A stretch of 64,000 nt of DNA from Tunturiibacter empetritectus (GTDB lineage: Bacteria; Acidobacteriota; Terriglobia; Terriglobales; Acidobacteriaceae), in the NCBI RefSeq assembly GCF_013410875.1, contig NZ_JACCCU010000001.1:1922001-1986000 (forward strand), given 5' to 3'. The notes under the pieces are model-generated. The model did no database searches, was not told the DNA's origin, and saw only the letters and a program-made list of their open reading frames with translations. The position numbers and the translations under genes are program-made. This document shows, piece by piece, positions 51,105 through 57,623 of this stretch (position 1 is the first letter of the stretch; each line of letters starts with the position of its first letter).

Positions 51105-52184
51105 CTAAGTAAGGAAGGTAGCGGCCAGGAGCAAAATTACGCCGAGGTACGTCACCGGGTAGATCCATTTCCCGTTGGAATGTACCTTCTCTGCCGTAGA
51201 CCTCATTCCACGTTTTTGCATGAGATAGACCGCAGTAATTTCAAAGATACAAAGAAAGCAGAGGGCGAAGCTGGCGAGGAAGACAGCGTCCAGAAACGTC
51301 ACGTAGCCCACTCGCGGAAGGTCGCGCGTAATCGTGAACTCGAAGGCCACCATGGAGAGCAGCATGGTCATTGGAACTTTCAGGAGCCAATCGAACTGCT
51401 CAACGTCGATCCAAAAGACGACCACTGGAACCAGAGTCATCATCGCCAGCGGAACAAAGATCTTCCAGAGATAAAAACCCGATCGCCGTTTGACAGCAAG
51501 TTGGAAGACCGCTTCCTGGGTAGGAGGAAGGAAGCGATCGCGGGCCACCTTCTCCGCAGTGTAGCGAAGATCGTTTATCTCCCAGGCAGCAAGCTGAGTG
51601 TGTTGCTCAGGACTGACGCCGGTGGATTGCAGAGGCTGAGGGGCGAATCGAATCTCGGAGGCGGTTGAGAGAAACGGTTGAACTTCAAACTGAAGGACCT
51701 GAGTATCGAAGGGGAATCTCTTCAAGTCATAGTCGTTGGAAAGAACGGTGTCGAAGCGCTCGATGTACGTGACAAAGCCGTCTCTATCGGCAATTAAAGA
51801 ATACTGGGTCGTCTTATGGGAGATGGAGTTTGCCGCCTCAATCGCGGGAGTCCAAAGGTCTTCCAGACGAAAGGTACGAGTCAGAGTTTGCGCTGTTGCC
51901 TTGTCTGCGATCTGGCCCGGGGGCAAGACAAGACGCGGATCCTGCCATCTGCCAGTAAGGTAGCCACCGACCTCAAAACTTTCACGAGATTCGTCTATCG
52001 CTACAAAGTTTGTGATGTAAAGCCCCAGCGAAACTTCAATTGGCGTCTTGCCGCCGGTGGGATGTTTGCGAAGATCCACACTGGGCTTTGGCGCCGTTTT
52101 CACTGCAGAAGATGCGGGAATAGAGATGGGGGCCATTATCAAAAACATGGCTAGCTTTGCACGGAAGAGGCCGCATTGCTTCAT
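51105..52184 (-). CDS. Pentameric ligand-gated ion channel (Cys-loop superfamily)
   Basis: The product is 359 aa. A signal peptide is followed by an extracellular beta-sandwich (about 40-235) with VSLGLYITNFVAIDESRESF, the conserved WxP (LEDLWTPAIEAANS) and the loop DLKRFPFDTQVLQFEVQPF. The bounding Cys residues of animal channels are absent, as in GLIC/ELIC. Four helices follow: YLWKIFVPLAMMTLVPVV, the pore-lining WLLKVPMTMLLSMVAFEFTI, VFLASFALCFLCIFEITAVY and IYPVTYLGVILLLAATFL. The ligand and ion selectivity are unknown. It stands alone between tRNA-Ser and the Ser/Thr kinase. Confidence 0.88.
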   Translation of the reverse strand: MKQCGLFRAKLAMFLIMAPISIPASSAVKTAPKPSVDLRKHPTGGKTPIEVSLGLYITNFVAIDESRESFEVGGYLTGRWQDPRLVLPPGQIADKATAQTLTRTFRLEDLWTPAIEAANSISHKTTQYSLIADRDGFVTYIERFDTVLSNDYDLKRFPFDTQVLQFEVQPFLSTASEIRFAPQPLQSTGVSPEQHTQLAAWEINDLRYTAEKVARDRFLPPTQEAVFQLAVKRRSGFYLWKIFVPLAMMTLVPVVVFWIDVEQFDWLLKVPMTMLLSMVAFEFTITRDLPRVGYVTFLDAVFLASFALCFLCIFEITAVYLMQKRGMRSTAEKVHSNGKWIYPVTYLGVILLLAATFLT

Positions 52185-52284: not shown

Positions 52285-55200
52285 TTAGAGGCCACCCCTA
52301 GCCTCCTTCTTTCCATACTTCAATGGTCGATACGTCTCGACTTTTTCCGGTGGAGTGCGACTAGCCTTGTAGTTCCGCGCTACGCTTATCCCTGCCATCG
52401 GATAGAGGTCTCCATCCTGCATCGACGCTTCGCCACGCCGAGCCAACACTTCCTGAAAATCGATGTTTGCCTGAGGCGTCTGTCCCAATGCGGTATGTGC
52501 CATGCCGCGCAGATAGGCCGCGAACAACGTCTGGTTCTCGTTTCCAGAAGCACCCAGATTCGGAATAGCCTTTCCGGGTTCATTGATTCCAATTGACGCT
52601 GCAGCCTTCAACTCCGGCGCGTAATCCTGAACCACTGCTGTATTTCGCGGAAAGTCCTGTTGCAGAATGAGAGCGGTCTTTATCGCGTACGGTTGATCTC
52701 CACAAAGAGCCGCTGCCATTCCCGCGTTGAAGCTTGCAACTGGCCCCTTCGGCAAGCCCTTCCCTTCCTCAACCATCTCAAGCGCGACAGGGCAACTCTC
52801 CGCAAGAGCGTGATCAAGCGCACCTTGTGCCAACAAAGACGCCTGAGTGCCAGAAAGCTTAGCCTCGTCGCCGGCTTTCGCAGCCGCACTCCGCCACAGG
52901 TCGAGAGCCGCGCTCTTCTTCCCCGTGTTATCCAGATAAAGACCGTAGTTATTCAAATCCGCGTAAGTCACCTGCGCGCGATTGCCCATCGTTGGTCCGG
53001 TGAGCGCAGCCTGCAGTTCTTTGTTCTGCTCGGCCACAAGATCTTCTCTTCCGTCCAGGTATGCCGCGGTCAGAACGTTCGTGCCACTCGCAACGCCAAC
53101 ATGACCAGCCTGTGATTCCAATTCAAGAACGCTCCCGTACCGATCCATCCCGATCAAGTCACGTTCTGCCTCGATATAAGCCTCTGCATCGAACGGATTC
53201 GTCTCATACCCCTGCTGCGCAGCCTGCAAAGCCTCCGGGAACAGCCGTTGCACTCGCAGTGCCAGCGCCAGATCCTTTCGCCCGTCGACGCTGAGCGGAT
53301 ACCGCAGCACATACTCACGGATCGTCCTGGTAGCCTGAACCAGATTCCCGCTCCCATTCACCTCGAAGCAAAACTTCGCCAGCAACTTCACCGCTTCGCT
53401 CGAGTGAACGGCAGCATCGCGTGCGAAACCGGCAGCGTTGGCCGATGCCACTTCAGCTCTCTCTTCGCGATAAAGCCACGCAAGACGCATCTGCGCCTGA
53501 ACAAACTTCGGGTCGAAACGAACAGCCTCCTGGTATGCCTTCAACGCATCGGTGACTCGGCCACTCTGCTCCGCCGTCGCGCCCGCGAAGTAAGCGTGCA
53601 GCGCGTCCAGGCTTGCCGATGCCTCATCGGCAAATGGAATATTTCTTCGCAGGTCGGATTTACTGTCTGCGCTGATCTCTCTCCGCACAGCCAGCGCCAG
53701 GCGTCCGATCGCCGCCGGAATTTCTTCCCTGCTTGCGGCAGTCTCATCGAGGCTTGCCACCTTGTCATTCGAGTCTGTCCGCAACACGTCGACACTAATC
53801 GTGTAGGGCGCCTCCGCTCCATTGATCTCGCCATACAAATAGGCTCGCGTGCCAATCTTCTGCGCGACGCTCCACACCGGCACTGCTATAGTCGCGCCTG
53901 TGTTTCCGGGCTCTATCTGGACCAGGCCCGCGTGATACGCCTCACTACCCAGGACATTCAAAGTCCTCGACTGATGAAGCGCAATCTCAAGCCCCTGCAT
54001 CACCGTGCCATCCAGCGTCTTGTCCCCGGTCTTATTTTGGATAAGAGTCAGTAACAAACGATCATTTGGCTTTAGCACCATCGGTCGAAAGAGGCTCATC
54101 CCCATCGTGAGAGAGGCTGCCGCCGCGACGCCGAGAATCATCGTCACCGCGACTACCATCCGCACCCGGGCCTTCTTCCCCTGCTCGGCCACCAACTCCG
54201 ACAGTAAGTCCTCTTCAGAGGCGACCCACTCCCCTGCTTCGTGCTTGGCATCGTCGTCGCGGTCCTCGTCAACAGCAGCCAATCCACTTCGGAATCTTAT
54301 CGAACCCGGTTCGTAAGATCGCGTCTTCGCTGCCGCCGGCGCGCCATAACCAACATGTGGTAGGACAGAGTCTTGAGACGAATCGCCTTGCTCGGCCACG
54401 CCGTATTCGGAGAGCGGTTGCCACTGCGTATCTGTACTCTCAAAGGCGATTGCGCTCGCCTGCGCGGATCGCGAGCCCTCCACATCGCTGCCACGATCCT
54501 GCCTCGGTCTGAGCGCGGGGCGTATCCGTTTATTGCCATGACTCACCCCTTTCGTCTCCGCTACCGAGAGCCGCCGTCCCGCCGTATCGCCCTTGTCTGG
54601 CTCAGACCTGCGCTTCGGCCCCTTATGCAAAGCCACCGGATCATAAGCGCGAACGAGCGGAACCGCTGCCAAAGATCCCTTATGGAGCCATCCGCCTCGA
54701 CCCAGTTTCCCACCAACCCTGACCAGCGCCTCCTGCAACTCCTGCGTCGTCTGGAATCGCTCACCTCGGCTCTTCGCCATCAGCTTCAAAATAATTCGCT
54801 CCAGGTCACGTGGAATCGATTCATTCCAGTTACGCACCGAGTCAGGCGTATGACTAAGAAGCTGTACAAACATTAGCGCGCTCGTCGTTCCTTCAAACGG
54901 CACCCGTCGCGTCGCCATCTCATACATCACGACACCCAGCGAGAACATGTCCGACCGCGTATCCAGCGACTCGCCCCGTGCCTGCTCCGGCGACATATAC
55001 GCCACCGTTCCGACCGTCGCTCCCGACAGTGACATATCCAGCGTCCGCGACTCCCACCCGCCGCGTACTTCGATCCCAATCTTCGCCAGGCCAAAGTCCA
55101 GCACCTTCGCCTGGCTCTTTCCATTTGGCAACTTCACCAGAAAGATATTTGCCGGCTTGATATCGCGATGCACAATCCCTTTGGTGTGTGCTGCCGCCAG

Positions 55201-55560
55201 CGCGTCCGATATCTCCAGTGCATAGCGAACAATCTCCTCTGGCGAAAGCGCACCGTGTTCGATTCGAGACTTTACCGTCTCGCCCTCCAGCAACTCCATC
55301 ACTAGATATGGAGTACCGTTCTGTTCGCCGATGTCGAACACCGTACAGATATTTTGGTGATTCAATGCAGACGCCGCCCGAGCCTCTTGCAGAAAGCGCT
55401 CCCGCATACCGGGCATCTTGTAGCTCTCGTGCAGAAGCTTTACCGCAACCTCGCGATGCAGCCTTTCATCCCAGGCGCGAAAGACCAGGCCCATGCCTCC
55501 GCCGCCCAGTGTGCCCAGGATCTCGTACGGGCCGAATCTCTGGCCAGCCTCTGGAATCAT
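52285..55560 (-). CDS. Membrane Ser/Thr protein kinase with C-terminal TPR-like domain
   Basis: The product is 1091 aa from ATG 55560 (AAGGAA 7 bases upstream; an in-frame start at 55602 would add 14 residues). The Hanks-type kinase domain covers about 12-275: LGGGGMGLVFRA, VAVKLL, catalytic loop IVHRDIKPANIFL, DFGLAKIG and AYMSPEQARGES. A long, charged linker leads to one membrane helix (MVVAVTMILGVAAAASLTMG, about 472-492). The extracytoplasmic half has a TolB-like part and helical TPR-type repeats (ALKAYQEAVRFDPKFVQAQM). This layout is common in Acidobacteria; the substrate is unknown. Confidence 0.92.
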   Translation of the reverse strand: MIPEAGQRFGPYEILGTLGGGGMGLVFRAWDERLHREVAVKLLHESYKMPGMRERFLQEARAASALNHQNICTVFDIGEQNGTPYLVMELLEGETVKSRIEHGALSPEEIVRYALEISDALAAAHTKGIVHRDIKPANIFLVKLPNGKSQAKVLDFGLAKIGIEVRGGWESRTLDMSLSGATVGTVAYMSPEQARGESLDTRSDMFSLGVVMYEMATRRVPFEGTTSALMFVQLLSHTPDSVRNWNESIPRDLERIILKLMAKSRGERFQTTQELQEALVRVGGKLGRGGWLHKGSLAAVPLVRAYDPVALHKGPKRRSEPDKGDTAGRRLSVAETKGVSHGNKRIRPALRPRQDRGSDVEGSRSAQASAIAFESTDTQWQPLSEYGVAEQGDSSQDSVLPHVGYGAPAAAKTRSYEPGSIRFRSGLAAVDEDRDDDAKHEAGEWVASEEDLLSELVAEQGKKARVRMVVAVTMILGVAAAASLTMGMSLFRPMVLKPNDRLLLTLIQNKTGDKTLDGTVMQGLEIALHQSRTLNVLGSEAYHAGLVQIEPGNTGATIAVPVWSVAQKIGTRAYLYGEINGAEAPYTISVDVLRTDSNDKVASLDETAASREEIPAAIGRLALAVRREISADSKSDLRRNIPFADEASASLDALHAYFAGATAEQSGRVTDALKAYQEAVRFDPKFVQAQMRLAWLYREERAEVASANAAGFARDAAVHSSEAVKLLAKFCFEVNGSGNLVQATRTIREYVLRYPLSVDGRKDLALALRVQRLFPEALQAAQQGYETNPFDAEAYIEAERDLIGMDRYGSVLELESQAGHVGVASGTNVLTAAYLDGREDLVAEQNKELQAALTGPTMGNRAQVTYADLNNYGLYLDNTGKKSAALDLWRSAAAKAGDEAKLSGTQASLLAQGALDHALAESCPVALEMVEEGKGLPKGPVASFNAGMAAALCGDQPYAIKTALILQQDFPRNTAVVQDYAPELKAAASIGINEPGKAIPNLGASGNENQTLFAAYLRGMAHTALGQTPQANIDFQEVLARRGEASMQDGDLYPMAGISVARNYKASRTPPEKVETYRPLKYGKKEARGGL

Positions 55561-55731
55561 GCCTCGGTTCCTTCTATTCTCCCCAGCCCCGGTCAGAACC
55601 AATATCTTCGCTTGGTGATCGCTTCCAACTCTCGCATAACCAGTTCAGGGAATATATCCCCCAAGCGTGGCATGTCGTTCAGTCTCCATCCTCTCCATCA
55701 AGCGCCGCCTCCTCGACCTTATAATCAGTCT

Positions 55732-56454
55732 GTGAACTCTCCCACCCAAATCGACCGTCGCCCACTCCACCAGACCCTCCTGATCGACGCCGACGACACG
55801 CTCTGGGAGAACAATATCTACTTCGAGCGTGCCATCACCAGCTTCATCTCCTACCTCGATCACCGGGTTCACACCGCCGAAGAGGTTCGCAGCCACCTCA
55901 ACCAGGTCGAGCACGATACCATCCGCGCCCACGGTTACGGACTCCACAGCTTCCGCCGATCGCTGGTCACCTGCTTCGAGCAGCTTAGCGACGCCCCCAT
56001 GACCGACGAAAAGCATCACCGCATTGAAAGCTTCGCCCAGTCCATAGCGAATCAGGAGATCGAACTTCTCCCCAACGTCGCCCCCACGCTCAGCGAACTC
56101 GCCACGCGTCACCGCCTCATTCTGGTTACCAAGGGAGACCATGACGAGCAAACCGGCAAGCTGCATCGCTCCGGCCTGGCTCCTCACTTCACTGCCGTCG
56201 AGGTGCTGTCTGAAAAACATCCTCAGGCCTACGAGTCTCTCGTCTCCCACCACGCCTGCGACTCTTGTAACACCTGGATGATCGGCAACAGCCCACGCTC
56301 CGACGTCAACCCTGCGCTCTCCGCTGGACTGAACGCCATCTTCATCCCTCACGACTTCACATGGGTGCTGGAGCACGAGGCCGTCAATCAGCCCCCTGCT
56401 GGCCAGCAGTTACTCGAGCTAGCCAGCTTTGCCGAACTTACCCAGCACTTCTAA
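55732..56454 (+). CDS. HAD-family hydrolase (YjjG-like)
   Basis: The product is 240 aa from GTG 55732. Motif I is LLIDADDTLWENN, motif II Thr is in LILVTKGD, motif III Lys is in VLSEKHP and motif IV is GNSPRSDVNPALSAGL. It is probably a phosphatase for nucleotides or small phosphate esters. No Shine-Dalgarno is seen; TATAAT (55720-55725) ends 6 bases before the GTG, suggesting a leaderless mRNA. It is divergent from the kinase and convergent (4-bp overlap) with the oxidase-like gene. Confidence 0.88.
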   Translation: MNSPTQIDRRPLHQTLLIDADDTLWENNIYFERAITSFISYLDHRVHTAEEVRSHLNQVEHDTIRAHGYGLHSFRRSLVTCFEQLSDAPMTDEKHHRIESFAQSIANQEIELLPNVAPTLSELATRHRLILVTKGDHDEQTGKLHRSGLAPHFTAVEVLSEKHPQAYESLVSHHACDSCNTWMIGNSPRSDVNPALSAGLNAIFIPHDFTWVLEHEAVNQPPAGQQLLELASFAELTQHF

Positions 56455-57623
56455 GCAAGCGCCGGGCTCTTGCAATCCCGCATCCCGTTAAATAACTTCG
56501 CCTGCTTCGCCAGAATCGCAGCCTTTGTCGCCAGGTCAGGCTGCAGGTTCCAATCGCCCATCTCATGGGTTCCACCCAGCACCACTCCATCTCGCCGCGA
56601 GAACATGTAGGTGTCCTCATAGACCGTGGCATAAGTCACCTCGGGCTGAGGCAGCAGGATCGTCAGTTGTCCCCGAACCGGCGTCATCTCTTCATCGCCG
56701 AACAGTGCCTTTGCCCCGAGGCCCGTGCAATTGAAGACGAGTTTCTCCGGCAACGCGCGCACCTCGTCGAGACTCTTCATCTCGCGAACGACCACTCTGC
56801 CACCTGCGATGCGAACCTCAGTCAGCATCGCAGGCAGATAGATCGGAGGCTCAACAATCATCCCGTCAAACTGTCGTGCGTACTTGCCTGTAAACGGATG
56901 CGCTCCCGCCGGCAGGGTCTTGATCTCCGGCCTTAGTCCCTTAAGCATCCCCTCATCTGTTTGCGACGGCCACGGCTCATCCGACAAAACATAGTTACGC
57001 ATCCACCGAATCCCATACTTCGGGTCCATCATAATCTGGTAACGCCGGTACGCATACTGTGCCGCTGCCACGAACTGCGCCGTAAACTCCGGGGTCAAAG
57101 TCCTGTCCGAGTCATATACGGTGGCCGGTAGCCACTGCCCACCCGCAATATTCGAGGTAGTCTCCGGCGGGAGAGCCTTTGCGTAGATCGTCACATCGAA
57201 TCCTACCTCCTGCACCAGCCGGGCCGTAGCCAATCCCACTGCACCACACCCCAACACTGCAACTGGCCCGACATGCCCCGGCAAACCAAGGTCAGTCGCC
57301 AACTTTGAAGTTCCCCAACTCAACGTAATCCCGCCGCCACCGTGACCATAGTTATGGACAACGATCGTCTCGCCCACCATCTCTCTGGCAACGCGAAATC
57401 CAGAGTGCCGAAACGGCCGCAACCCCACAACCGTCCGTATCTCACGTTCCGCAGACACCCTCACCCTAGGCAGCGAACAAGCCGTCTCCGGCAGATTCAC
57501 CGGCAAAGCCCCCGCTGCGATTGCCGCGCCAATCGGCCTCCTGACGCACCCAAACAATCCACCACCAGCGGCCAGCGACACCGCAGTCATATTCGCATGC
57601 TGCAAAAACGTCCGTCGATTCAT
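56451..57623 (-). CDS. Tat-exported D-amino-acid-oxidase-like FAD protein with permuted motif order
   Basis: The product is 390 aa from ATG 57623, chosen because it gives MNRRTFLQHANMTAVSLAAG, a twin-arginine signal, followed by a lipobox-like LFGC. Residues about 64-105 (VVGLRPFRHSGFRVAR, HNYGHGGGGITLSWG) match the segment that is C-terminal in D-amino-acid oxidases. The FAD-binding VAVLGCGAVGLATARLV and NIAGGQWLP, normally N-terminal, come after it (about 121-166). VFNCTGLGAKALFGD and VVLGGTHEMGDW end the protein. FAD-linked oxidation is likely; the substrate is unknown. Confidence 0.85.
   Translation of the reverse strand: MNRRTFLQHANMTAVSLAAGGGLFGCVRRPIGAAIAAGALPVNLPETACSLPRVRVSAEREIRTVVGLRPFRHSGFRVAREMVGETIVVHNYGHGGGGITLSWGTSKLATDLGLPGHVGPVAVLGCGAVGLATARLVQEVGFDVTIYAKALPPETTSNIAGGQWLPATVYDSDRTLTPEFTAQFVAAAQYAYRRYQIMMDPKYGIRWMRNYVLSDEPWPSQTDEGMLKGLRPEIKTLPAGAHPFTGKYARQFDGMIVEPPIYLPAMLTEVRIAGGRVVVREMKSLDEVRALPEKLVFNCTGLGAKALFGDEEMTPVRGQLTILLPQPEVTYATVYEDTYMFSRRDGVVLGGTHEMGDWNLQPDLATKAAILAKQAKLFNGMRDCKSPALA

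Follow-up and report, generated by a model that had tools for sequence, protein, structure and literature searches.

An open reading frame in Tunturiibacter empetritectus raises the question of whether a protein bearing the marks of a D-amino-acid oxidase (DAAO) carries them in a genuinely rearranged chain, and what such an enzyme would do at the cell envelope. The window analyzed is a stretch of 64,000 nucleotides, for which an earlier note had proposed a circularly permuted DAAO-like protein exported by the twin-arginine (Tat) pathway. The frame starts with an ATG at 57623 and ends with a stop codon at 56451–56453, and the motifs lie where that note placed them, with GLRPFR (residues 67–72) and NYGHGGGGIT (91–100) preceding GCGAVG (125–130; Table 1). 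Ordinary DAAOs have the FAD fingerprint at the N-terminus and GxRPxR and YGHGG at the C-terminus; the window protein does not have this order, and is thus a permuted relative of the DAAOs rather than an ordinary member.

Table 1. Positions of the permuted gene and of the parts of its product in the window
Feature	Window positions	Strand	Basis or remark
Permuted DAAO-like gene	56451..57623	minus	390 amino acids plus stop; one uninterrupted frame
Residues 1–26, putative twin-arginine signal, MNRRTFLQ... to lipobox-like LFGC (Cys26)	57546..57623	minus	motif reading
Residues 61–113, moved segment, the counterpart of the C-terminus in ordinary DAAO	57285..57443	minus	PDB matches, rotated match, model
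Residues 114–120, linker from old C-terminal helix to old N-terminal strand	57264..57284	minus	NYGHGG-GxGxxG spacing
Residues 121–380, domain for FAD and substrate, the counterpart of pig DAAO 1–269	56484..57263	minus	VIA-align, PDB alignment

A phmmer search of the PDB matched the best chains in two stretches whose order is swapped. With human D-aspartate oxidase (DASPO, 6rkf), query residues 120–375 align to chain residues 14–268 and residues 60–109 to 278–330; with pig DAAO, residues 121–364 align to 3–253 and residues 62–106 to 276–323. The protein belongs to Pfam DAO (PF01266; 107.8 bits against a curated cut-off of 27.9, E 1.1e-30), its best stretch, residues 121–382, falling on profile positions 2–301 of 353, and all 68 members of a 68-row alignment match this profile at E 0.001 or better. 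A genome-wide search with Pfam DAO recovered the window gene in two pieces, profile positions 2–302 on its downstream part and 302–353 on its upstream part, the latter in the same frame at contig positions 1979288–1979446; among the 27 DAO matches in the genome, it alone is listed as two swapped pieces.

Returning the first piece to the end of the chain gave a single run on DASPO (7–341 to 14–329), the whole-sequence score barely shifting from 113.6 to 114 bits; 14 of 17 listed chains were then matched in one stretch, and pig DAAO (1an9, 1dao) and a human variant (6kbp) still in two. The rotation was also applied to 142 unique permuted open reading frames, scored against a profile built on seven DAAOs of ordinary order, all from genomes in the window's phylum. 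The best single-domain score rose in 125 of the 142, with the median moving from 123.1 to 166.55 and model coverage from 0.78 to 0.97. Random rotations gave a median of 98.6 and a coverage of 0.56, and scored above the native order in 26/142. By this comparison chance is rejected as the source of the swapped order. In the remaining 17 frames rotation brought no gain; five of these were inspected, and they suggest to us that HMMER splits the match anew because of surplus terminal residues where the pieces meet.

The concern in the earlier note that homologues in ordinary order might expose a local assembly error here proved unfounded: an assembly or gene-model error is a negligible explanation, with nothing found in its support, since the same order occurs in another genome of the same species (G202, locus L125), in the 82%-identical L021 and L022 and throughout the best named loci described below, and since the gene is one uninterrupted frame in which differences fall mostly at third codon positions. 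The differences at the three codon positions number 5/7/23 relative to L125 and 61/37/166 relative to L021, a concentration at the third position that indicates a gene under selection as protein.

Structure prediction, which the earlier note had put forward as a check, yielded a confident model in which residues 117–380 adopt the DAAO fold. AlphaFold2 with 68 aligned sequences gave a pLDDT of 90 and a pTM of 0.88 (pLDDT 32 on the lone sequence), the weak parts being the first 40 residues, dips at about 221–230 and the last ten residues. The best Foldseek match to the model is human DASPO (E 5.5e-18). In VIA-align, over residues 117–380, Z scores were 23.4 for DASPO, 23.0 for pig DAAO (1kif; rmsd 1.8 over 246 residues) and about 18 for glycine oxidases, with a core identity to known DAAO of about 26% in the structure alignment; no fold in the VIA-align list is better than DAAO, a ranking that applies to the folds in that list. 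The span reported by the aligners is the core, 117–381, with the moved segment outside it. This segment is modeled as three strands and a helix (strands 61–72, 77–83 and 86–92; helix 102–113) that together hold both GLRPFR and NYGHGGGGIT, and its pLDDT of 95–98 as a block speaks for a fixed place in the predicted structure. The domain that follows the linker begins at the GCGAVG fingerprint strand. At the other end, the modeled chain finishes in a helix (364–379) at the point where pig DAAO enters the moved strand, around residue 276, which agrees with the earlier proposal that the protein stops where the permuted segment would normally begin.

The rearranged order is a property of a large family. 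A scan of named contigs found at least 595 pattern stretches, 584 of which encode a relative; in the best 80 of these 584, NYGHGG precedes GxGxxG without exception (80/80, with L025–L028 counted as permuted under a wider motif pattern), so the survey of relatives that the earlier note had suggested returned the same order. Named permuted loci come from Acidobacteriota, Alpha- and Gammaproteobacteria, Verrucomicrobiota, Gemmatimonadota, a Zixiibacteriota bin and Mycobacterium montefiorense. Of 399 genomes in the window's class, 56 have near-full-length permuted-order matches (E 1e-80 or better), as do 35 of 396 in a sample of its phylum; the two samples overlap and both contain the window's own genome. 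In the class of a Sphingopyxis genome (G841, Alphaproteobacteria), 11 of 190 genomes have a split permuted match; the four further matches in that listing are weak (E 3e-16 to 8e-11), unsplit and in ordinary order. In Actinomycetes, the class of M. montefiorense (G840), 28 of 148 genomes match strongly in ordinary order (E 1e-60 or better), and M. montefiorense alone has the permuted form as well. Its permuted copy (L095), which has an ordinary DAAO beside it in the genome, clusters with Sphingomonadaceae copies, a placement that hints at acquisition by transfer. Ten genomes or records were checked for DAAO-like genes, and in nine of them no strong match other than the permuted gene is present.

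The permuted set comprises 190 loci that reduce to 156 unique rows and, after thinning at 72% identity, to 81; a masked stretch (L010) and a fragment (L018) were left out. Of the 29 loci L195–L223 considered for the ordinary-order set, 13 passed the motif script and the pattern excluded the rest. The spacing of NYGHGG and GxGxxG is 34 residues in 115 of the 156 permuted members and wider in some, the counts including a few low values (20, 23) where the pattern took another glycine-rich stretch. Longer join linkers, with spacings of about 44 to 70 residues, occur in L138, L139 and L168. An ordinary-order DAAO domain in another genome (L154, G628) is followed in the same frame by about 330 further residues.

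Phylogenetic analysis places the two orders in separate clades. In an unrooted tree of 104 rows (81 permuted, 23 ordinary) a single branch with an SH-aLRT of 100 divides them. A rooted tree was built from 36 permuted rows (13 hand-picked plus every third of the others), the 23 ordinary rows and five ThiO-like proteins (L013–L017) as outgroup; here the permuted clade (support 98/92) and the ordinary clade (96/87) are sisters. As the outgroup is in ordinary order, the permuted order is derived and one event suffices. We consider it very unlikely that the two orders arose repeatedly or that the permuted order is ancestral: such a history could draw on the eukaryotic DAAOs, which lie outside the tree, and on the rotation of the permuted sequences by script before alignment, but each order forms one supported clade, the outgroup is ordinary and the larger tree splits the orders cleanly. 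One ancient permutation likely lies behind the permuted clade, and the earlier proposal of a true circular permutation is borne out by the motif order, the rotation test with its random control, the model, the many genomes and the tree.

Circular permutations usually arise by duplication and fusion, followed by a new start and a new stop. In the permuted proteins the old C-terminal piece, comprising the GxRPxR strand with the carboxylate-binding arginine, the YGHGGxG loop and the last helix, now comes first and runs through a short linker into what was the N-terminal FAD-binding strand. The chain now begins and ends within the loop that precedes the GxRPxR strand, and the three-dimensional core of the oxidase is retained in the predicted fold. 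No intermediate in which the moved segment is doubled was seen, a second YGHGG being absent from the 156 open reading frames; three late RPxR matches among them lie elsewhere in the chain and look like chance. Taken together, we are confident, short of certainty, that the window protein is a member of a DAAO-type bacterial family born of one circular permutation, with a putative D-amino-acid chemistry carried out after export.

By motif, the N-terminus of the window protein is that of a Tat-exported lipoprotein, with RRxF/L, a hydrophobic stretch and a cysteine. Met1, Arg3, Arg4, Gly25 and Cys26 are each conserved at 90% or more in a 10-row alignment. A strict twin-arginine pattern is found in 132 of 142 permuted open reading frames, 113 of which also have a lipobox-like cysteine, and a looser pattern in 147 of the 156 permuted proteins. 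Of the nine that miss the looser pattern, L041, L063, L099 and L233 do have an arginine pair with other following residues, and L009, L163, L095, L177 and L182 have none in the stretch inspected; L178 matches merely through letters upstream of its annotated start. We therefore read the pair as present in 150 of 156 permuted proteins. An RRx[FLW]L signal is found in none of the 23 ordinary-order proteins. L009 and L163 are paralogues of the permuted enzyme, without the export signal, in two relatives. The protein would fold in the cytoplasm with its FAD and then leave by Tat, and a lipid at Cys26 would anchor it on the outer face of a membrane.

This conservation across the family supports the signal and lipobox-like cysteine that the earlier note had reported. 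Its further suggestion, that Tat use fits the export of a folded FAD enzyme, holds for most members and does not extend to the earliest-branching permuted proteins: the first branch to leave, uniting L177 (Bradyrhizobium), L178 (Rhizobium) and L182 (Nonomuraea) with a support of 100/99, lacks the signal, so that export is probably later than the permutation. For the same reason Tat export is an unlikely cause of the permutation, although the fork that sets the remaining permuted rows apart has a support of only 91/81.

The readable marks of the active site resemble those of DAAO, from which we predict oxidase activity on D-amino acids. The three glycines of the GxGxxG fingerprint are invariant in the 156 permuted proteins, as is His94, and [YF]GHG[GS]xG is found in 156/156, in a set that was chosen by a looser form of this motif (NYGHGGGG, residues 91–98, in the window protein). 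Arg69 aligns with pig Arg283, which we take to be the arginine that binds the substrate carboxylate, and the position is arginine in all 156 permuted and all 23 ordinary proteins. Tyr339, at the position of pig Tyr228, is a tyrosine in 108 of 156 permuted and 16 of 23 ordinary proteins; since 48 permuted proteins have another residue there, members of the family need not all share one substrate. In human DASPO, Arg216 and Arg237 are presumably the arginines for the side-chain carboxylate of acidic substrates. The window protein has Ala332 and His353 at these positions, and across the family arginine is outside the six commonest residues at either of them. With these two replacements neutral D-amino acids would be the expected substrates. 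The protein also scores 47.5 bits against the NCBIfam ThiO equivalog model, below its cut-off of 250.8.

In the proposed reaction the enzyme would bind FAD and remove a hydride from neutral D-amino acids, or from close imino acids, giving a 2-oxo acid and ammonia; Arg69 would hold the carboxylate and Tyr339 would line the site. According to the text of PMC9844085, GxRPxR and YGHGGxG are conserved among bacterial DAAOs and the Arg-Pro pair is named for substrate carboxylate binding; the same text finds the FAD fingerprint and the Arg-Pro pair also in glycine oxidases, some with the other two motifs, and the motifs alone thus do not fix the substrate. The permuted fold might instead act on glycine, sarcosine, cyclic imino acids, opines or a modified amino acid, a possibility that we regard as rather unlikely. 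It would be in keeping with the low identity of the core to known DAAOs, with the variability of the Tyr224 and Tyr228 positions in the permuted family and with the gene context of the basal L177 and L178, which is unlike amino-acid breakdown; against it, DAAO and DASPO match best among solved structures, with glycine oxidase behind them (Z 23 vs 18), and the window protein retains tyrosine at both positions as well as the Arg-Pro pair.

The electrons would pass to oxygen or to a respiratory acceptor. That the permuted fold works as a dehydrogenase feeding a c-type cytochrome or quinone, instead of as an oxygen-using oxidase, is a substantial possibility, somewhat short of an even chance. The predicted export to the cell envelope would suit such a role. 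In Kozakia baliensis a c-type cytochrome gene follows six bases after the permuted gene, and 15 of 85 loci (Kozakia and 14 others) have a secreted-looking CxxCH frame no more than 2.5 kb away on the strand of the permuted gene, the 14 others being all downstream, visibly alike and on contigs labeled Gammaproteobacteria, Pseudomonadales or Proteobacteria. However, 70 of the 85 loci have no such neighbor (in 17/85 a flank is shorter than 2.5 kb), as do 29 of 30 further loci (mostly with flanks of about 1.4 kb; the one match looks unrelated), the window gene stands alone, and the CxxCH protein of the 14 loci, encoded at distances of 48 to 2208 bases, may have no connection with the permuted enzyme. 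This downstream protein has about 455 residues (e.g. L058:7150-8514 and L067:3999-5363); two of the 14 were scanned, and both gave below-cut-off matches to cytochrome and Cu2_monoox_C profiles.

No operon conserved across the family was found in 86 loci, whose genes were called by a rough procedure that overlooked even the permuted gene in about 20 cases. Gene clusters common within lineages were observed, for example an HslU/ClpX-like neighbor, named by eye, in 13 loci. On plasmids of Bradyrhizobium (L177) and Rhizobium (L178), an FAD-binding oxidoreductase, of the berberine-bridge type in L177, the permuted enzyme and a thiamine-diphosphate enzyme are consecutive, and the row looks like a biosynthetic or breakdown cluster. 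In the window, no neighboring gene points to D-amino-acid use. The window's minus strand also encodes a bacterial homologue of the pentameric ligand-gated ion channels (51105–52184; Neur_chan_LBD 3.3e-19, Neur_chan_memb 7.9e-7) and a serine/threonine protein kinase of 1105 residues with a tetratricopeptide match and a TTG start (52285–55602).

Comparison with known relatives sets out what is new. The window protein is like pig DAAO (1kif/1dao) and yeast DAAO (1c0k) in the FAD fingerprint, the GxRPxR arginine, the YGHGGxG loop and the Tyr228 position, and like the pig enzyme in its predicted core fold; it differs from both in having the C-terminal piece of about 50 residues at the N-terminus, behind an export signal. 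Human DASPO is the best match in sequence (E 9.7e-32) and, tied with pig DAAO, in structure, yet the window protein is permuted and its Ala332/His353 pair does not favor acidic substrates. The ordinary-order bacterial DAAOs (Actinomycetes, and Acidobacteriota L149–L156) form the sister clade, sharing GxRPxR and YGHGGxG and differing in chain order and in the lack of the signal, and glycine oxidase ThiO is more distant, with the Pfam family and FAD fingerprint in common.

In the literature searched, from which most subscription papers and bioRxiv preprints are absent, we found no description of a circularly permuted DAAO or flavoprotein family, and the term “permut” is absent from the main text of PMC9844085 (2022). 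That text counts just over ten bacterial DAAO genes identified, all in “Acinetobacteria” as printed, which we take to mean Actinobacteria. Sequence searches mostly reveal the core, and three annotated plasmid copies that were examined are labeled merely “FAD-dependent oxidoreductase”. DAAO is among the classic flavoenzymes, yet a whole bacterial branch of it with a rearranged chain seems undescribed in this literature.

The permuted and ordinary enzymes form a natural pair in which the effect of chain order on flavin loading, folding and Tat export could be tested, and the permuted branch would bring several phyla, and the cell envelope, into the range of DAAO-like enzymes. More tentatively, and with doubt on our part, the ancient permutation may have founded a separate class of DAAOs in which an N-terminus freed from the buried FAD strand later took on a Tat signal and a lipid anchor; this class might account for a widespread scavenging of D-amino acids at the Gram-negative envelope, or a recycling of those of peptidoglycan, with electrons passing to the respiratory chain in some lineages.
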